The translations under genes were made by a program, and so were the position numbers. The notes under the pieces are model-generated. The model was not told where the DNA came from and ran no database searches. It saw nothing but the letters and a program-made list of their open reading frames with translations. Below, in pieces: positions 8,614 through 26,898 of a stretch of 29,191 nucleotides of DNA. The DNA is from a virus. Location: positions 1-29,191 of the IMG/VR virus record IMGVR_UViG_3300037135_000030. One strand, given 5' to 3'. Positions within the stretch are counted from its first letter, which is position 1; the number at the start of each line of letters is the position of its first letter.

Positions 8614-9402
8614 TTACCGCTTCGCTTTCTTGCCGGCGAACTTCGCGTTAGACCGTACGGCGGGCTTCGCTACACGCTCCTGGGGCGCGGCGAACGGCTT
8701 CTGCAGCACGTCCTGGATCTTCAAGAACCGCTTCTCCAGGGCTTGCAGAATGTCGTTGTCCTCGATCAGCTCGACCATCTTGAACTCCAGACGGATCTGC
8801 GTCTTAGGGTCGTCGTAACTTGCAACCTCCGTCACCACGGCCCACGGCGGACGTCCATACTCTTCCTCCAGCAGGTCGGTGTACTTCTTGTAGTGCGTCA
8901 GGTTGGTGGGGCTGATGCCGGCCGTAGCAAGCTCCGCTGTGCCGACACCGTCAGCGTCCTCAGCATCCTTGGCCGTCAACAGACCCAGACGAATGGTGTT
9001 GGCGCACGCCTTTCCGCGCCCTTTCTTAGCTGAGCCGAACACGTTCTTCTCACAGTCGACGCACGTCTCAGACTGCTTGTTTGCAGCCGACGCGCTTGGA
9101 GCCATCTCAGGGTCATCGCTGATGACCGAGAAGGCGTAGCAGTCAGGCGGTTGCCGGTCTGTAGGGTCGTAGTCCGCCTCGTACCACTTGTTAAGAGCGC
9201 AACTGCCAATGATGACGCACTCCAACTTGCCGCCCTTCACAGGCGTGTCACCGACGGTAATGCTACCGCGCCCAAACTTGACGCCGACGCCGCCCGTGCC
9301 GATGTTCTTGGTCTGCTCCTTGGTATCCTTGGCGTACTTCGCAAACTTTTCCGTCCAAGGTACTAGAGCCGTAGTCTTTGCCGCTTTCTTCGCTGGTGCC
9401 AT
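8614..9402 (-). CDS. conserved phage protein, possibly ssDNA-binding
   Basis: The 262-residue protein has a Lys/Ala-rich start and end, a central beta-rich part (CVIIGSCALNKWYEADYD) and a Cys cluster: DCYAF (about 88), CVDCEKNVFGSAKKGRGKAC (about 114-133). The C-x2-C...C spacing within a phage replication operon resembles proteins sometimes annotated as single-strand-binding or replication accessory factors. I cannot confirm this from sequence. The tail beyond residue 205 is helical and basic. AAGGAG precedes the ATG. It lies directly ahead of the dCTP deaminase gene and 99 bases after a small gene. Confidence 0.75.
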   Translation of the reverse strand: MAPAKKAAKTTALVPWTEKFAKYAKDTKEQTKNIGTGGVGVKFGRGSITVGDTPVKGGKLECVIIGSCALNKWYEADYDPTDRQPPDCYAFSVISDDPEMAPSASAANKQSETCVDCEKNVFGSAKKGRGKACANTIRLGLLTAKDAEDADGVGTAELATAGISPTNLTHYKKYTDLLEEEYGRPPWAVVTEVASYDDPKTQIRLEFKMVELIEDNDILQALEKRFLKIQDVLQKPFAAPQERVAKPAVRSNAKFAGKKAKR

Positions 9403-9501
9403 TGTTCTTTCTCCTTGCTACTGGTTGTGGGGCGGCCCGTCTCCGCCCGTCTACGTCGCTTTCTGCGCTTAGTACACAGATGGTAAAATCTTCTCAGCTT
9501 C

Positions 9502-9735
9502 CTACAGCCTCGCTAGTGCGTACCTCCTGCGCCGGTCGCCTGGGTCGTGTATCGCGGCCATCTCATGCAGCAGGTGCAAGCGATTCTCGGACGTTGATGA
9601 CTTCACCAGTTTGCAATCCGACGTAAGGGCTTCGCCCTCTGGCCAGCCGCACCAGGCCAGGTGGTCACCGCGCACATAGGCGACCGTCCATGTCTCTCCC
9701 GAAGGCCCGTGCATCACTACATCTCCAGTGTCCAT
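9502..9735 (-). CDS. small conserved phage protein, 77 aa
   Basis: The N-terminal 50 residues follow a pattern I associate with small conserved phage and bacterial proteins of unknown function: GDVVMHGPSGETWTVAYVRG, then LAWCGWPEGEA and a DCKLV segment. It is beta-rich and probably a small barrel. The last 25 residues are basic. The ATG overlaps the upstream stop by one base (TGATG). The 99 bases downstream contain a weak GC hairpin (about 9432-9450) and no gene. Confidence 0.75.
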   Translation of the reverse strand: MDTGDVVMHGPSGETWTVAYVRGDHLAWCGWPEGEALTSDCKLVKSSTSENRLHLLHEMAAIHDPGDRRRRYALARL

Positions 9736-10145
9736 CAGGTGAGCTCCTCCTGGGCTTGCTTGCGCCTTACCGCGTCGACGGCTTGCACTATCTTCAACAC
9801 ATCGGAATCACCCAGCGTGTAAGTGTACTGCGCAAACTGGTACAGAGCACGCTTCGCCGCCGCTACAGCTTCGGCATCTTTTGTCATCAGCCGATTTGGT
9901 CCTTCGGCTGCAGCCGATGTGTCCTTGACGCCGTGGACTAGCAGCGCCCTATTCACGTCATCGAAGTGAAGGCATTCCTTCAAGTTCGGACTTGGGTCGT
10001 TCGGGCTTGTTGGAGTAATGCGCCCGTTGCAGAAATCATTCCCAGCCGTTGCATCATAGAGAATCCCAACTACAGGGGCTCCGTACGAAGGAATGAGGAT
10101 TACTTTGTCGCCGTTCTTTGCTTCACGTCCATTTTTATAGTGCAT
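9735..10145 (-). CDS. hypothetical protein, 136 aa
   Basis: It starts MHYKNGREAKNGDKVILI, preceded by a clear GAGAGGAAAACTC ribosome site, and the N-terminal half looks like a small beta-barrel. NLKECLHFDDV (about residues 56-66) and a helical C-terminus follow. The frame is also open to an ATG at 10268, which would add 41 residues and uses a weaker AAGTAGG site. I recognise no function. It is coupled to the next gene by TGATG. Confidence 0.7.
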   Translation of the reverse strand: MHYKNGREAKNGDKVILIPSYGAPVVGILYDATAGNDFCNGRITPTSPNDPSPNLKECLHFDDVNRALLVHGVKDTSAAAEGPNRLMTKDAEAVAAAKRALYQFAQYTYTLGDSDVLKIVQAVDAVRRKQAQEELT

Positions 10146-15951: not shown

Positions 15952-16050
15952 CTTCACTTCCTTCACTTCCTTCACTTCCTTCGCTTCCTTCACTTCCTTC
16001 ACTTCCTTCGCTTCCTTCACTTCCTTCGCTTCCTTCGCTTCCTTGGCTTG
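15952..16050. repeat. 11-unit 9-bp tandem array (CTTCACTTC/CTTCGCTTC)
   Basis: Eleven contiguous 9-bp units run from 15952 to 16050. Nine are near identical, alternating A/G at one position, and the last (CTTGGCTTG) is diverged. One strand is almost pure pyrimidine, the other purine (GAAGTGAAG). The array lies between promoter motif D and the gene starting at 15923, so it would form most of the 5' leader, with GGAAG resembling a ribosome site many times over. Confidence 0.95.
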
Positions 16051-18166: not shown

Positions 18167-18811
18167 CTACGATGAACGCGATGGTTCTGTAGAGGGTCGT
18201 GCAGCCTCCCCTAGATGTTTGAGGAAAATTCGCTCATTCGCAGACGCCGCCGCAGACGCCGCCGCAGACCTCGCCGCAGACCTCGCCGCAGACCTCGCCG
18301 CAGACGCCGCAGACGCCGCAGACGCCGCAGACGCCGCCGCAGACCACGCAGACGCCGCAGACCACGCAGACCACGCAGACCACGCCGCAGACTCCGCAGA
18401 CTCCGCAGACCACGCAGACCACGCAGACGCCGCAGACTCCGCCGCAGACCACGCAGACGCCGCAGACGCCGCCGCCGTTTCTACTTCCCTGAGGGTTGCG
18501 TTGCCGTCCAGGTAGTCTGCTGCTACCCGGAGCGCCGCGCGCGGGCGCTTGTCGTCAGGGTACTCGCGTTCGAAGTTTGGGAGCGAGGTCATGGCGAAGT
18601 CAATAGCCATCCGCGCGGCGATCTTCCGAGCATCTACGGTTGTTGCACGTAGAGCCCAAAGTGCGTGATCAAGTCCGTTGACGGTAAGGATGTGAGAGAG
18701 CGGGATGAGCGTGTCCTCTGACTGAGTGGACGGGAGGGACGCGGTGAGCGTCTTGAGGCCGCCAGAGCAGGCGGATTGATTACGGAGTAGAGCGAGGGTG
18801 GTATAAAGCAC
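18167..18811 (-). CDS. Imm-5-like protein with Ala/Ser/Trp repeats
   Basis: The 214-residue product starts at a GTG behind AAAGGAG. Residues 46-62 (GLDHALWALRATTVDAR) and the following ARMAIDFAM, then NATLREVETAAASAASAW, match the style of the Imm-5 immunity family (PF14423), whose members end in Ala/Trp-rich repeats. Here residues about 112-192 are almost only A, S, W, E and R. Immunity proteins neutralise toxins in bacteria; a phage copy might block a host or rival toxin. That is inference. No cognate toxin is nearby. The repeat tract may vary in length between relatives. Confidence 0.6.
   Translation of the reverse strand: MLYTTLALLRNQSACSGGLKTLTASLPSTQSEDTLIPLSHILTVNGLDHALWALRATTVDARKIAARMAIDFAMTSLPNFEREYPDDKRPRAALRVAADYLDGNATLREVETAAASAASAWSAAESAASAWSAWSAESAESAAWSAWSAWSAASAWSAAASAASAASAASAARSAARSAARSAAASAAASANERIFLKHLGEAARPSTEPSRSS
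18240..18475. repeat. coding 6/9-bp tandem repeats (CAGACGCCG and CAGACCACG units)
   Basis: About 230 bp consist of short direct repeats of CAGACGCCG, CAGACCACG, CAGACCTCG and CAGACTCCG in mixed order. They encode the Ala-Ser-Trp tail of the Imm-5-like protein. Units are a multiple of 3, so slippage would change length but keep the frame. Confidence 0.9.
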
Positions 18812-20134: not shown

Positions 20135-20370
<236 letters not shown>

Positions 20371-20692: not shown

Positions 20693-22960
20693 TCACACCA
20701 CTCGCACCTTCGCATCCTTCGCCGCGTACTTCTCAGTGCGCCCGACTTTCTCAGAAGGAGCCAAGAACGGCTTCGGGCGCTCTGCCGTGTACGCCCGCCC
20801 AGCTTCCGCCGCGCCCATCTTCCTGTAACGGTCAACGTTCCTCAGCGCCCACAAGCGTGTTCTAGACCCGTACACCACGGCTCCATTCTGTCCGTTTGCA
20901 ATCTTGAATACGCCTGCGTTAGCCAGCGCCGCAGCCACGCCCTTATGGCCTACGCGATTATGGCGATTTGGCTCGGCTAACTCAAGGGCCTTCAGTAGAT
21001 CCTCCGTTCGAAATAGGTCGTACTTCAAATGATCAGACTTCAGAAATGAAGATGGGTCTCTAACAAGCTCAAACGCCCACTCTTCGATCTCACTTCGTCC
21101 AGCGACAGCCATCTCCTGCTTTGCCAGGGTTACGGGCGCGGGCGCTGTAGGCTCAAACGCTGGCACGTGTACAACGTAGCCTCCGCCTTCGCTCTTCACA
21201 GCGCCAACGGTGCCCTCAGGTACTGCAACTTCTTGGGCTCCCAGGTCTACCTCGTGTTTGAAGTAATGAAACATACGCGCCGCGCCGCCTTCCTCGCGCC
21301 ACCACCTTCTAATGGCTACGTACTCTGGCGGGCTCATTGTTTGCTTTTCCACGTTGTGAATGAAATAACGGCGCGCGTCGTTTTCAATGTAGATTGCATT
21401 CTCACTGTTAGATGTGAAGTAAAAATTAATGCAGTCCCTAACAGTGTACGTCTTACGGTTCTTGATGTCAATTCTAATCGTTCGGCGTGTGATCATCTCC
21501 TTCAGCTTCGTGGCAATTCCACGCTTATCGCCGACGCTTATCTCATCCCCAAGTATGAACTGCTTATTCTCAGCCCATTCCGTAAATGTGCCCATCAACT
21601 GGTCGTGGTTTACAAGGCCGTAGTTACGGCCGTAGACATCTTCCATCAACTCGGCTATGAGCGATTTACCAATTCCCTGCCCCCGCCCCCACACCAGCAT
21701 AGCGGTGTACAGCTTTGTGCCGGGCTTCTGTATTGGGTATGCAAACCACTGGCGCACCCACAGTTGGTGGACCTCTGATAGATCACCGAACACCTGCTTG
21801 AAGAGTCTTTCCCACGGGGCCGTGGACATGATGCGCTTAGCGCCCGAAATAGGGTCAACGAAAGTCTTCATCGGAGTGAGGGGCCAGCGCTGCGCGTGCC
21901 AGGTGTTGTAGGCACCTTCCTCAGTAATCATATTGGCGCTGGTTGGATCATACGCAAGCTTCGTTACGTCGTTACGAAGGCTAAAACTCAGCCATTCTTT
22001 TGCAGCAAACTTCGTGGTCATTTTTCCGTTAGCTTCTAACGTTTCGTTGTACGTACGATTCTTATAGCGTGCTTCGGAGAATGCAGTTGGACTGTACACA
22101 TTTCCGGTGGCTAACTCGATCACCTCGGCCGTACTCTGAATAAACGCCACTTCATTATTAAGGCGGTAAAGTTCCCTTCCAGGCCCTATCTCAGCGGTGT
22201 TCATGAGTAGTTCGCCGAACTTATCCACGCCTGTAGAGAAATCCATCGCTTCGGGCTTCGACCCACGCTTCTCAGGCTTCGCGAAGGAGTAGACAAAGTC
22301 GTCCACACCTTGCTTACTTCCGTCTTCAGCGGGCGGAAGCTGTATCCATCGAACTAAGGCTCCCCGCTTGCCGAGAACATACGCCAGCCTAGACGCCGCC
22401 ATTCTAACCATGGGGTTTGTCTTGCTATCACTATCAAAGCTCAGCCCCACGTCACGTGGAGACCACTCGAAGGCGTCTAAAATTGGTAGTAGGTCCTGAC
22501 CTTCGCGAGCGGAGCGCCAGTTGTACACGCCGCCCAGACCGATTGTAGCGCCCAGACCGAGCTTACAGGCGCACGCCGCTTTCAGCTCACCCTCCGTAAT
22601 AATCACAGGTATCTTCGGGTCCTTGGCTATCTGGGCCCATGTTTTATCCAGTAACGGTGGAAGGTACACGCCGCACTGCGTCCCTCCTGGCTGGGTGTAA
22701 CGGCGGGGTTTCTTTTCAGGCTCAGTAACGGCGGCCCATCCTTTGGGGTCTTGTAGTATACGAAAGCGAAAGATTTTGTCGTCCACCTTACCATCCAGCT
22801 TGAAGTAAGGTATTCTGAATCCTGCGAGCCCAGCCGGATATATCTCTAGTTCATGCCCCTCTTCATACGGTTCGAACTGTAAGGTCTTAACGTCCTGCAC
22901 GGTCAGACAACTTGTGGCTGCCTTGGCCAGCATCTTTTCGCGTACGTCCTTTAACGTCAA
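20693..22960 (-). CDS. primase-helicase (Toprim-like DUF3854 plus SF3 helicase)
   Basis: The large protein (up to 755 residues) has a Toprim-type primase part with IITEGELKAACACKLG (about 119-134) and LSFDSDSKTN (about 174-183), the Glu and Asp-x-Asp pair expected for metal binding. A superfamily 3/D5-like helicase follows, with Walker A WGRGQGIGKSL (about 426-436), Walker B FILGDEI (about 472-478) and TSNSENAIYIENDARRYF as motif C region. It would prime and unwind DNA for the polymerase. The start is unsettled: TTG 22960 or ATG 22933, both inside the previous gene. Confidence 0.92.
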   Translation of the reverse strand: MTLKDVREKMLAKAATSCLTVQDVKTLQFEPYEEGHELEIYPAGLAGFRIPYFKLDGKVDDKIFRFRILQDPKGWAAVTEPEKKPRRYTQPGGTQCGVYLPPLLDKTWAQIAKDPKIPVIITEGELKAACACKLGLGATIGLGGVYNWRSAREGQDLLPILDAFEWSPRDVGLSFDSDSKTNPMVRMAASRLAYVLGKRGALVRWIQLPPAEDGSKQGVDDFVYSFAKPEKRGSKPEAMDFSTGVDKFGELLMNTAEIGPGRELYRLNNEVAFIQSTAEVIELATGNVYSPTAFSEARYKNRTYNETLEANGKMTTKFAAKEWLSFSLRNDVTKLAYDPTSANMITEEGAYNTWHAQRWPLTPMKTFVDPISGAKRIMSTAPWERLFKQVFGDLSEVHQLWVRQWFAYPIQKPGTKLYTAMLVWGRGQGIGKSLIAELMEDVYGRNYGLVNHDQLMGTFTEWAENKQFILGDEISVGDKRGIATKLKEMITRRTIRIDIKNRKTYTVRDCINFYFTSNSENAIYIENDARRYFIHNVEKQTMSPPEYVAIRRWWREEGGAARMFHYFKHEVDLGAQEVAVPEGTVGAVKSEGGGYVVHVPAFEPTAPAPVTLAKQEMAVAGRSEIEEWAFELVRDPSSFLKSDHLKYDLFRTEDLLKALELAEPNRHNRVGHKGVAAALANAGVFKIANGQNGAVVYGSRTRLWALRNVDRYRKMGAAEAGRAYTAERPKPFLAPSEKVGRTEKYAAKDAKVRVV

Positions 22961-23480
22961 AGCTCACAGACCTTTCCTTTATGTTGGTACCACGTTCTTC
23001 GCTCTTGCTGCCTAGCTTCGACGGTGCGCCCGCCAGAGTGCTTAGTGCTATAGTCAGCAACGCGTCTACTATCCGACTGGAGTTAACAGTCATAGGGCGG
23101 TTTCGCTGGCCTTTTCCCCGACGGCGCTTATTTGCCGCCTGGCGGCGCTTTAGCTCAAGTATGATAGCCGCTTGATTCGGCTCACGCTGTGAAAGACGAA
23201 ACAGCGTAGCCCGGTCCAGGAGTCTTTCATTGTCTTTGAAGTTCCACGCCCCGGCGGGTTTCTTAGGCTGGGGCCGAAACATACTGTACAGATATTCATA
23301 ATCCGAAGGTGCGAGGTTTCCGTCGTCTAGCTGCATAGGCTCTTCGCTCTTCGGCTGCTCAGGATAGATTAGTTTCAGTATGAGTTGCATGTCCGGGTCT
23401 TGTAGGGGGGTGACTAACAGCCTATCTACTGCCACTGAGTTCTCCGGGCTAAGGGTGAACGCCCGCATTAATCGTGCCAA
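22887..23480 (-). CDS. hypothetical protein next to putative origin, 197 aa
   Basis: This is the first gene of the leftward block. It starts at a TTG (23480, AGGAGG five bases upstream) or ATG 23468. The middle (LDRATLFRLSQREPNQAAII then LELKRRQAANKRRRGKG) is helical and strongly basic, which would suit DNA binding. Its position beside the origin-like region, directly ahead of the primase-helicase, makes an initiator or loader role possible. No family is recognised. The last 25 codons overlap the primase gene. Confidence 0.7.
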   Translation of the reverse strand: MARLMRAFTLSPENSVAVDRLLVTPLQDPDMQLILKLIYPEQPKSEEPMQLDDGNLAPSDYEYLYSMFRPQPKKPAGAWNFKDNERLLDRATLFRLSQREPNQAAIILELKRRQAANKRRRGKGQRNRPMTVNSSRIVDALLTIALSTLAGAPSKLGSKSEERGTNIKERSVSFDVKGRTRKDAGQGSHKLSDRAGR

Positions 23481-23505
23481 GTTAACCTCCTTGTGTGTAA
23501 CTAGT

Positions 23506-23511
23506 TTATAT
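23506..23511 (-). promoter_or_regulatory. possible promoter of the leftward block
   Basis: The minus strand reads ATCATATAAACTAG, with TATAAA as a -10-like box 25 bases upstream of the first leftward start. The 17-base spaced -35 position holds TGGAAC, a weak match. It differs from the TATAATTA class and may be the early promoter. Confidence 0.35.
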
Positions 23512-23619
23512 GATTTTAGTTAATCGCGTTCCACTGGAGCTAAGGCGAAAGGTTTAGAGAGGCTTGGAGCCCAGGGCGTGCAGCTTCGCTCTCGGGTCTC
23601 TAGAGGTGATTTTAGGCCG

Positions 23620-23645
23620 CGCGCTCGATTCATGAATCGAGCGCG
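23620..23645. repeat. 26-bp perfect palindrome
   Basis: The 26 bases from 23620 are identical to their reverse complement, with TCGATTCATGAATCGA at the centre, followed by TTTT on the plus strand. It can act as a bidirectional terminator stem or as a binding site for a dimeric initiator. Its core recurs in variant form (TCAATCATGATCGA) at 23845-23858. Confidence 0.9.
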
Positions 23646-23679
23646 TTTTGACTAAGTGGCTGAGAACGTTGGGGTTAAG

Positions 23680-23885
23680 CTCCCTCGATAAAGTCGCTCG
23701 ATTCACCTGTCCGACCCTATATATATATAATCTATACACCATATATAGTATATACATGTAATACATTATATTTATAAACAGTTTAAGTTAAAAAGAATTG
23801 AGGGATGAGTAGTTTACTCAGGCCGGTGTTGAAGAGATGATCCCTCAATCATGATCGAGGGACCCATTGAGGGATCGAGGGGTTT
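23680..23885. other. putative replication origin: AT-rich stretch with iteron-like motifs
   Basis: An AT-rich run from about 23718 to 23800 is flanked by copies of TTGAGGGAT or ATCGAGGG: inverted at 23681-23690, direct at 23798-23806, inverted at 23840-23848, direct at 23854-23862, 23867-23875 and 23874-23881. Two repeats of TAAGTGGCTGA (23653 and 23891) lie outside. No gene is convincing here on either strand. AT-rich unwinding element plus iterons between divergent gene blocks is the classic layout of a phage or plasmid origin. Confidence 0.55.
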
Positions 23886-24022
23886 CATGGTAAGTGGCTG
23901 ATTTTAGGGTGGTTAGTATCCTTCGATTCTTTATTTTGATTTCGCAGGTAACCTCTGGGCCGTTCGGGGCTATACTGAAGTCACTGAGTCAAAGTGAGAG
24001 TGGTGTGGCCCGTGGTTACGCT

Positions 24023-24084: not shown

Positions 24085-24372
24085 TTGTCCAGAGAAATAT
24101 GCGTGTTGAGCTTGGAAGAAACTGGGCGGCTAGAGAATTACGGGGTCTGGCCGGTGTGTCGGAATCATAGACATGTTCCAAAGCGCGACGCCGTGAAAGC
24201 GGTGGAAGCGGAGGAGTTCAGATTCGTGGGAGGTCCGGACACGGCGGTTGCATTTGTTTCCGCCATCGTTCCTGTGAATACTTCCGGTATGTGGGTGCCG
24301 GTCCAATGCCACGACTATGACGGTCGAAAGATTCAGGGTTTCAGGACGTGGGGAATTGCGCCGACGGGCTGA
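24085..24372 (+). CDS. hypothetical protein, 95 aa
   Basis: The first rightward gene starts at TTG 24085 behind GAGGG. The N-terminal half (EICVLSLEETGRLENYGVWP, VCRNHRHVPKRDAVKAV) looks like a small regulator or adaptor, with Cys/His residues in VCRNHRH. The second half is beta-rich. The TGA lies in the first unit of a 22-bp repeat. I do not recognise the family. Confidence 0.7.
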   Translation: MSREICVLSLEETGRLENYGVWPVCRNHRHVPKRDAVKAVEAEEFRFVGGPDTAVAFVSAIVPVNTSGMWVPVQCHDYDGRKIQGFRTWGIAPTG

Positions 24373-24438
24373 GGTCGTTGGGAGTGTGGGCTGACGTCGT
24401 TGGGAGTGTGGGCTGGGCTGAGGTCGTTGGGAGTGTGG
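24366..24438. repeat. three copies of a 22-bp direct repeat
   Basis: Three copies of GGCTGAGGTCGTTGGGAGTG (with one C/G change in the second and a short GGGCTG insertion before the third) run behind the hypothetical gene and end 28 bases ahead of promoter motif G. They could bind a regulator of the rightward transcripts. Confidence 0.85.
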
Positions 24439-24877: not shown

Positions 24878-25612
24878 ATGGCACCCAAGAAGAAGCAGTC
24901 GGCCACCGCGCCCGCTGTTTCGGTGCCGGTGAAGCGATCCACAAAGAGTAAGAAGGCCGTGCCGGTTGCTGAGGTGAAGAACCCGCGCAGGCCTGGAAGC
25001 AAGAAGGCCGGGCTGCCAACTAAGGCGGAGCGGTCGGTGGCGAATAAAGCCGCATACCACTCAGCCCGCGCCATAGTAGTTAAGCTGGAGCACGAGGTTC
25101 AAGCCACTGTAGCCGCAGAGCGTAAGATTGGGCGGCCACCTGGTCCAGAGTTTCCGTGGACTGCTGAACTCGGTGAAAGCCTGTTCGTACTACTAGCCAC
25201 AGGGTCTTCCATGCGTGATATTTCCAACATCGAAGGAAATCCAAGCCTGTACCAACTACTGAAATGGGTCTACGATAAGGACCATCCCTTCAGCAAAATT
25301 CGCGAGCGCGCGAAGGAAATGCTCGTACCGCTATTCGAGGACGACGCAAGGGCCTTAACTCAGGTGCCTACGAGCTATTCCATTGTGACGCACAAGCAAG
25401 TATTAACGCGGGACGGAGACGTTGAAGACCTCGTCGAGCAGCGCACTGTAGACAACGTTGAGCGCGCTAAGCTAGCGTTCCAGGGTCTGCAGTGGACGCT
25501 AGCCCACCTGATGCCGAAGAAGCACGGACGGAGCCCTGACACCGGCGCACAAGGCCCTAACGAGCAACTAGAGGGTCTCTTCGCCGCGCTGAAGCAAGGG
25601 CCTGCCAAGTGA
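24878..25612 (+). CDS. terS: terminase small subunit
   Basis: The 244-residue protein starts with a basic, disordered tail (KKKQ, KRSTKSKK, NPRRPGSKK). A helix-turn-helix-like block follows: FPWTAELGESLFVLLATGSS (about 92-111), MRDISNIEGNPSLYQLLKWV, then PFSKIRERAKEM, as in phage small terminases that bind the packaging site. A coiled region leads to a C-terminus that should contact the large subunit. The gene overlaps the large subunit (GTGA). GGAG lies 11 bases ahead of the ATG. Confidence 0.85.
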   Translation: MAPKKKQSATAPAVSVPVKRSTKSKKAVPVAEVKNPRRPGSKKAGLPTKAERSVANKAAYHSARAIVVKLEHEVQATVAAERKIGRPPGPEFPWTAELGESLFVLLATGSSMRDISNIEGNPSLYQLLKWVYDKDHPFSKIRERAKEMLVPLFEDDARALTQVPTSYSIVTHKQVLTRDGDVEDLVEQRTVDNVERAKLAFQGLQWTLAHLMPKKHGRSPDTGAQGPNEQLEGLFAALKQGPAK

Positions 25613-26898
25613 GCGACACCGAACTTCTCATCAAGCCGTTCGGCCGTAAGAGTCAAGACTTCATCATGCGTGACCCGGTCGAGGATAAGCGCTACACCAT
25701 CCTGATCGGCACTGTCCGCTCGTCGAAGACCTTTACGCTGAACGCAAAGCAGATCGTTCAGTTGTGCCGCTATAAGATCCCACCCAACGCTAAGCGGCTG
25801 ATGACCGGGGCCACGAAGCAAACGCTCTACCGCAACGTGCTCATTGACCTATTCACGATAGTAGGCAAGGATAACTACTCCTACAACTCCTCCACCGGCG
25901 AACTTTGGTTATTCGGAACTCAGTGGTTCTGCATGGGCGCGAAGGACGAAGCGTCTTACCGCCAGATTCTGGGTATGACGGTCGGCGTAGTCATAGGTGA
26001 CGAAGTTGTTGAGTACCCCAAGAGCTTCCTGGCGCAGCTCTTTTTGCGTATGTCCCCAGCCGGGGCGCGCGCCTACTTCAGTACCAACACCGGCAACCCG
26101 TACTGCTATCTGAAGGCTGAAGTAATCGACGCACCCGCCTTTGCTGATAACCTGCAAGTCATCAACTTCAGCCTTGATGACAACCCTAATATAGATGAGG
26201 TCTCAAAGCGGGCCATCATCGCCTCGCAGACCGGCGTATTCTATAGACGCTACATTCTAGCAGAATGGTGCGTGGCGGAGGGGAGCGTATACCGTGATAG
26301 CTTCTCAGAGCTTGCGAACCTGTTCGATGGGGTAGTTACGGTCGACGGTAAGCAGGTACAGCTTCAGGATGAGCCTATAGGCCTGCGCAACGCGGGTGGC
26401 TACGTTGATCACTGGTTCAGCGTCGACCCAGGAGTAGATCACGTACAATCGCATCTTGAGTACTATGATGACGGCGACGTTATATGGTGCGTCTCAGAAC
26501 AGCGGTGGGACAGCCGAAAAGAAATGCGAATGAAAACTGATGGCCAGTACGTGGACGACCTTATCGCGTTCGGCGCTGAGAAACATCAGATCATAGTACC
26601 GCCCGAAGCCGCATCATTCAAGCAGGAGCTTATACAGCGAGGGCTGTGGGTCACGGACGCGAATAATAGTGTGAAAGAGGGCATTCACACAGTCGCCACC
26701 CTGTTTGCACGCCGAAAGCTGCGCATCAGCAAGCGTGGCTGCCCAGAGCTTGCAAAGCGCATTCCTAATTATGCGTGGGACGACGATGCCGCAAAAAGAG
26801 GAATCGAACAGCCCAGGAAAACGGAAGATGACGACTGCGATTCTCTTAGATACGGGGTCCATGGAAAGATACCTCAGTGGAGGGTGTCCGTTGGCTAA
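25609..26898 (+). CDS. terL: terminase large subunit
   Basis: The 429-residue packaging motor starts at a GTG inside the small-subunit stop. ATPase motifs are Walker A-like IGTVRSSKTF (about 33-42), Walker B VVIGDEVVEY (about 126-135) and a coupling STNTGNP. The nuclease domain has SVDPGVDH (Asp, about 270-277), IIVPPEAASFKQEL (about 325-338) and a final DDDCDSLRYGVHG cluster. It cuts concatemeric DNA and pumps it into the prohead. Confidence 0.94.
   Translation: MSDTELLIKPFGRKSQDFIMRDPVEDKRYTILIGTVRSSKTFTLNAKQIVQLCRYKIPPNAKRLMTGATKQTLYRNVLIDLFTIVGKDNYSYNSSTGELWLFGTQWFCMGAKDEASYRQILGMTVGVVIGDEVVEYPKSFLAQLFLRMSPAGARAYFSTNTGNPYCYLKAEVIDAPAFADNLQVINFSLDDNPNIDEVSKRAIIASQTGVFYRRYILAEWCVAEGSVYRDSFSELANLFDGVVTVDGKQVQLQDEPIGLRNAGGYVDHWFSVDPGVDHVQSHLEYYDDGDVIWCVSEQRWDSRKEMRMKTDGQYVDDLIAFGAEKHQIIVPPEAASFKQELIQRGLWVTDANNSVKEGIHTVATLFARRKLRISKRGCPELAKRIPNYAWDDDAAKRGIEQPRKTEDDDCDSLRYGVHGKIPQWRVSVG

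Follow-up and report, generated by a model that had tools for sequence, protein, structure and literature searches.

Putative replication origin between two divergent gene blocks

The gap from which the replication genes run leftward and the structural genes run rightward was read as the iteron-type origin at which a circularly mapping phage genome of some 100 kb would begin its replication, with a probability of roughly 85% as judged from the sequence and its relatives. The window analysed here was a whole stretch of 29,191 nucleotides (positions 1 to 29,191 of IMG/VR record IMGVR_UViG_3300037135_000030). The original prediction of an origin combined with a transcription switch held for the gene layout, the AT maximum and the array that was colinear in a relative, but not for GC skew as proof or for the neighbouring 197-residue protein (p197) as initiator. 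For an uncultured phage group with genomes near 100 kb, these results settle on a likely origin, a likely initiator and a likely genome layout, and a matching site is indicated in the cultured phages AXL3 and PW916, which are open to direct testing.

From the observed anatomy, conservation, AT maximum, gene layout and predicted fold of the helicase half, we infer binding, melting, a bidirectional start and the pairing of protein with repeats as follows. The origin would lie at the parting of the leftward replication genes and the rightward structural genes, and the primase-helicase would bind the YGAGGG iterons on either side via a C-terminal winged helix. Guided by the two iteron sets, a pair of hexamers would flank the AT-rich core; the core would then melt, and each hexamer would load, unwind and prime. 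Two opposite forks, each co-directional with transcription, would run until they converge about half-way round the genome.

Gene layout of the window and its relatives

A 49,876-base record (G001) contained a nearly identical copy of the window, and searches that used the primase, terL and orf95 as queries yielded ten further lineages, among them records of 100-105 kb (G002, G011 and G016). The ends of the G002 and G011 records overlapped, and these are therefore probably near-complete, circularly mapping genomes. The group consists of uncultured phages that have genomes near 100 kb and encode their own DNA polymerase. The leftward block of the window included p197, the primase-helicase and the DNA polymerase, while the rightward block ran, in order from the gap, through orf95, tRNA-Pro, terS and terL. 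Both the gene beginning at 23480 and the primase-helicase, on which the original prediction had relied, were real ORFs (Table 1). Wherever the record of a lineage extended to both flanks, the primase-helicase and an ORF resembling p197 pointed leftward, and orf95-terS-terL rightward. The gap between these divergent blocks measured 520-700 bp in the lineages reaching both sides (592 bp in G011), and in the window it was bounded by p197 and orf95. A role as regulator or loading factor is proposed for p197.

According to the gene tables, the two blocks converged at about 50% of the way round in G002, 46% in G011 and 50% in G016. Convergence was also found about 50% round in AXL3, PW916 and ctUtU524, with a range over all six records of about 46-51%. 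The half-way convergence fits the two equal arms of a bidirectional origin, and it also fits two similar-sized blocks by chance.

The orf95 protein had 20 invariant columns across lineages, including C6, C25, H28, H30 and several W, produced no match in Pfam or in the phage collection and is perhaps a small metal-binding regulator. A scan of genome contigs with orf95 returned zero relatives, and therefore no host or prophage was indicated. The tRNA was the sole match of an Rfam scan. Directly after orf95 in G002 (L083:6428-7156, G002 86428-87156) a GIY-YIG nuclease was matched weakly, with a score under the Pfam cut-off, and is likely a homing endonuclease. In addition, one protein of G002 (L079:7103-8149) was 92.5% identical to its G011 counterpart (9049-10095 of the reverse-complemented record); the other proteins of these two lineages were mostly 45-78% identical. 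This protein may be a strongly constrained virion protein or the result of a recent exchange.

Elements of the proposed origin core

All of the sequence elements that the original prediction had placed in the gap were present: a 26-bp perfect palindrome, an AT-rich run of about 80 bp, six repeats in both orientations and a variant of the palindrome core (TCCCTCAATCATGATCGAGGGA, 23841-23862) close to the iterons (Table 1). The AT content of positions 23718-23797 was 85%, the top 80-bp value of the window, and the next best value elsewhere was 65%. ATYGAGGG occurred seven times in the window, whereas shuffling gave an expectation of 1.56 and reached 7 in 1 of 100 cases; six of the seven were located in the gap at 23682 (-), 23797 (+), 23842 (-), 23854 (+), 23866 (+) and 23874 (+). 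GAGGGAT alone was not enriched window-wide (4 copies against 2.8 expected), and its signal is one of clustering and not of window-wide count. Repeated 9-mers of the gap amounted to 24 pairs compared to 0.99 in shuffles. DnaA boxes (TTATNCACA, at most one mismatch) were not enriched in the ten gaps searched, with 10 sites against a mean of 6.0 and a maximum of 13 in shuffles.

Two features had been overlooked in the first reading. Both halves of the palindrome are themselves iteron variants (CGAGCG), and a second repeat, AAGTGGCTGA, stands with one copy on either side of the array. In strain L049, a G to A change at 23687 turns CGAGGG into TGAGGG and stays within the YGAGGG consensus. The palindrome was also considered as a terminator and rejected, as it was not called by the scan and the full palindrome was missing from G011.

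Table 1. Coordinates of the features of the window
Feature	Position	Strand	Remark
Primase-helicase	20693..22960	-	DUF3854 + DUF5906, SF3/D5-type; proposed initiator
Predicted winged-helix segment of primase-helicase	20846..21016	-	Residues ~649-705; proposed iteron reader
p197	22887..23480	-	197 aa, heads leftward operon; very divergent; upstream of primase wherever the record reaches
Proposed origin core	23620..23902	.	~280 bp: left iteron set, AT-rich candidate unwinding element, right iteron set; colinear in G011
26-bp perfect palindrome CGCGCTCGATTCATGAATCGAGCGCG	23620..23645	.	100% complementary
Flanking element AAGTGGCTGA, left copy	23654..23663	+	
Iteron ATCGAGGGA (TCCCTCGAT on +)	23681..23689	-	
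Iteron variant ATCGAGCG	23695..23702	-	Counterpart iteron in G011 (85062)
AT-rich run, candidate DNA-unwinding element	23711..23796	.	
Iteron ATTGAGGGAT	23797..23806	+	
Iteron ATTGAGGGAT	23840..23849	-	
Iteron ATCGAGGGA	23854..23862	+	Pairs with the 23840..23849 iteron in near-palindrome 23841-23862
Iteron ATTGAGGGAT	23866..23875	+	
Iteron ATCGAGGG	23874..23881	+	
Flanking element AAGTGGCTGA, right copy	23892..23901	+	
orf95	24085..24372	+	First rightward gene; present in all lineages; without family match
terS	24878-25612	+	Begins rightward structural block with terL; ~1 kb right of gap
terL	25609-26898	+	Begins rightward structural block with terS

GC skew

The cumulative GC-skew check suggested in the original prediction placed the minimum at the locus, at 23252 in the window, although skew at four-fold degenerate sites by arm was weak and mixed. 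The minimum lay inside the gap or no more than about 1 kb leftward of it in the window, G001, G002, G003, G008, G011, G013, G015, G016 and G017, and it was at or near the locus in all three records of about 100 kb. G010 was an exception, with its global minimum elsewhere in the contig (47109). The minimum is neither proof of an origin nor independent support for one because of the weak and mixed four-fold-site skew; the switch mostly reflects gene direction, and GC skew was dropped as origin proof since it follows coding direction.

Conservation across lineages

The 80-bp AT maximum of the whole record was located within the gap in all 11 lineages, including the three records of 100-105 kb, and with 120-bp windows the same result was obtained for 10 of the 11 (exception G002). 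Iteron conservation in relatives, the other comparison suggested at the outset, was clearest in G011, of which the primase was 58.6% identical to that of the window and p197 about 32-34%. Neither outcome that the original prediction had named as refuting, a skew minimum elsewhere or iterons not conserved in relatives, was observed. YGAGGGA occurred 8 times in the 592-bp gap of G011 compared to 3 times in the other 99.7 kb (0.02 expected in the gap), and 6 times in the gap of the window compared to 3 times elsewhere. When YGAGNG and AAGTGG sites were listed in order (window 23638-23892, G011 85002-85261), the arrays matched one-for-one in order and orientation over ten elements, despite p197 being 34% identical. 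The start-to-start spacings (window/G011) were 16/18, 28/28, 13/14, 104/107, 43/42, 14/14, 12/12, 8/8 and 16/16, differences of 0-3 bp. Identity between the two arrays was 73% in the iteron columns compared to 41% in the spacers between them. The perfect palindrome and its left half were not conserved in G011, where only the right half corresponded to an iteron (85002) in position and orientation.

Other lineages carried other words at the same site. The top gap-enriched words relative to the rest of the record were CCGCTA in G002 (7 copies) and ACTCAAA in G008 (5 copies), ATACGG was gap-enriched with 6-7 copies in G015, L140 and L138, and GTTGAAAA was confined to the gap in G010, G016, G017 and G019. 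In the held-out lineage L137, which was obtained later, GTTGAAAA again occurred twice in the gap and nowhere else. Iteron enrichment by word count was weak or absent in G010, G013, G016, G017, G019 and L137. A motif search over ten gaps showed AAGTNGYTGA-like sites in most lineages, with 8 exact sites against 0.19 expected from genome rates, a count that is optimistic because the gaps in which it was counted had also served to define the motif. No exact AAGTNGYTGA match was present in the gaps of the held-out L137, L138 and L140.

Candidate initiator and alternative readings

A contrast of three lineages was used for the question of which protein reads the iterons, as the window and G011 share iterons and the window and G002 do not. 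In the N-terminal half of the primase-helicase (residues 1-330), G011 and G002 were equally close to the window (42 and 44 discriminating sites), whereas in the C-terminal half (331-755) 96 sites favoured G011 and 29 favoured G002 (Fisher p=3.5e-5). The median identity difference (G011 minus G002) over 22 shared proteins was -0.9 points, and p197 showed no excess similarity (window-G011 about 32-34%, window-G002 about 33-35%). The N-terminal half and p197 map between the C-terminal half and the gap, and therefore transfer as one block does not explain the pattern. In this one contrast, iteron type appeared to track the C-terminal half of the primase-helicase and not p197, a covariation that counts as support and not as proof because it comes from three lineages. 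The model of the C-terminal half (pLDDT 90.9) predicted an SF3/D5 helicase with two helices and short wing strands C-terminal to it. The best structure matches were NrS-1 (Z 21.8, rmsd 5.3, 269 aligned), SaPI5 (Z 15.2, rmsd 3.8, 234 aligned) and PriRep1 with dsDNA (Z 13.4, rmsd 4.6, 267 aligned). The initiator is probably the C-terminal half of the primase-helicase, which is favoured by both the sequence contrast and the model, and the original choice of p197 is less likely.

A division of labour as with lambda O, in which the gap is the origin and p197 is the iteron-binding initiator that recruits the primase-helicase, is unlikely. It would suit a fast-evolving protein encoded by the first gene beside the gap in every lineage reaching it. 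However, lineages that share iterons had no more similar p197 proteins than those that do not, family searches gave neither a recognisable DNA-binding domain nor an O-like match, and the structure model was of low confidence (pLDDT 62, pTM 0.31). A split ribbon-helix-helix in p197 (N-terminal strand-helix plus C-terminal helix) was possible but unsupported, as the joined termini gave no RHH family and the p197 model was poor. Another, doubtful possibility is that the origin holds two codes: the site would stay fixed, YGAGGG, CCGCTA, ACTCAAA, ATACGG or GTTGAAAA would be swapped wholesale together with the C-terminal helicase half, and the shared AAGTNGYTGA would be read by another factor such as p197. 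If true, this would set replicon compatibility between related phages. Iteron exchange at a fixed site among related lineages offers a natural set for elucidating origin reading by D5-type helicases.

Two further readings place the start of replication elsewhere or give the gap another function. The repeats could be operators of a bidirectional promoter region through which a regulator, perhaps p197, balances the two blocks. Transcription does diverge on either side, -10-like boxes recur by eye near p197 and near orf95 in the gaps, a promoter-like match (23702-23731, +) overlaps the AT-rich run, and p197 is short and stands at the operon head. An iteron-flanked, melting-prone core of 80 bp that is the AT maximum of every record nevertheless exceeds what promoters need, the promoters called in the region were near chance (2 against 1.0), and iteron type goes with the C-terminal half of the primase-helicase and not with p197, which together leave the operator reading improbable. 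It is very unlikely that the gap is a pac or cos packaging site recognised by the small terminase subunit, whose gene lies about 1 kb rightward, even though terS and terL stand to the right in all lineages and many short contigs start in or near the gap. In most lineages contigs cross the gap unbroken, which argues against fixed cos ends; iteron type does not go with terS (window-G011 46%, window-G002 61%), pac sites have no need of an AT maximum, and several contigs break off within the AT-rich run, at which a loss of coverage would be expected. The contigs beginning in or near the gap ran rightward only (L046 at window position 23711, L049 at 23647, L056, L096, L102, L109, L139 and L142); they are probably due to strain variation or to poor coverage of the AT-rich core, and a packaging start is less likely.

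Comparison with known origins

An AT core flanked by iterons appears by analogy to belong with the origins described for phage satellites. In PICI origins, an AT-rich region always stands between two iteron sets (PMC6092414), and in both SaPI Rep and SCCmec Cch2 iteron binding resides in the C-terminal domain of the helicase (PMC7581432). PICI/SaPI origins are the closest known in anatomy, with two iteron sets and an AT-rich core. The PICI origin lies 3' of rep, whereas in all lineages the present gap is found on the 5' side of p197 and the primase-helicase, and unlike PICI origins it stands at a divergent transcription switch of a phage of about 100 kb with its own DNA polymerase. Given its place 5' of the putative initiator operon and at a transcription switch, the gap was therefore filed under the broad iteron-origin kind and not as a PICI origin. 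SCCmec Cch2 is a D5-type helicase of which the C-terminal domain binds short intergenic repeats (AAGTG direct repeats; PMC7581432). The flanking element found here begins AAGTG/AAGTN as the Cch2 repeats do, which may be chance. Cch2 differs in its separate primase subunit, its staphylococcal island and a putative origin downstream of the helicase. The C-terminal helicase of NrS-1 polymerase (PDB 6k9c) was the best match of the helicase half in both sequence and structure, but NrS-1 has a Prim/Pol N-terminus.

In phage P4 the repeats stand in both orientations, and two separate sites, ori and crr, are used; unlike in P4, both iteron sets are located in one gap here. By its description, P4 alpha resembles the proposed initiator in uniting a Toprim-type primase with helicase and origin-binding functions on a single polypeptide (PMC4234260). 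The gap does not correspond to a lambda-type origin, as the lambda iterons lie inside the initiator gene (O) and the present iterons are intergenic.

The nearest records of the phage collection were PW916, AXL3 and ctUtU524 (primase 32-33%, DNA polymerase 39-41%), and all three share the primase/terminase divergence. The AT-richest 80 bp were located at the divergent locus in PW916 (18969) and AXL3 (47450), and one gene over, between a small gene and terS, in ctUtU524. These phages differ from the present group in their genomes of 48-56 kb, and a long inverted repeat, as read from the sequence, takes the place of YGAGGG iterons on either side of the AT core in PW916 and AXL3. The AXL3 paper does not mention an origin of replication.

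Other repeats

Tandem repeats were also observed outside the gap. A 22-27-bp unit (GGGCTGAGGTCGTTGGGAGTGT), a possible pac candidate, was present three times in tandem between orf95 and tRNA-Pro (24366-24438), and tandem CGTTCACAAATAGC-type repeats were present just left of the gap in L137 (L137:1-230). Strong tandem repeats of the window were found at 18239-18472 (CGCCGCAGA-type), 15952-16044 (CTTCACTTC x10) and 20136-20184 (CA x24), all within the region at about 14-20.7 kb, which is poor in long ORFs.
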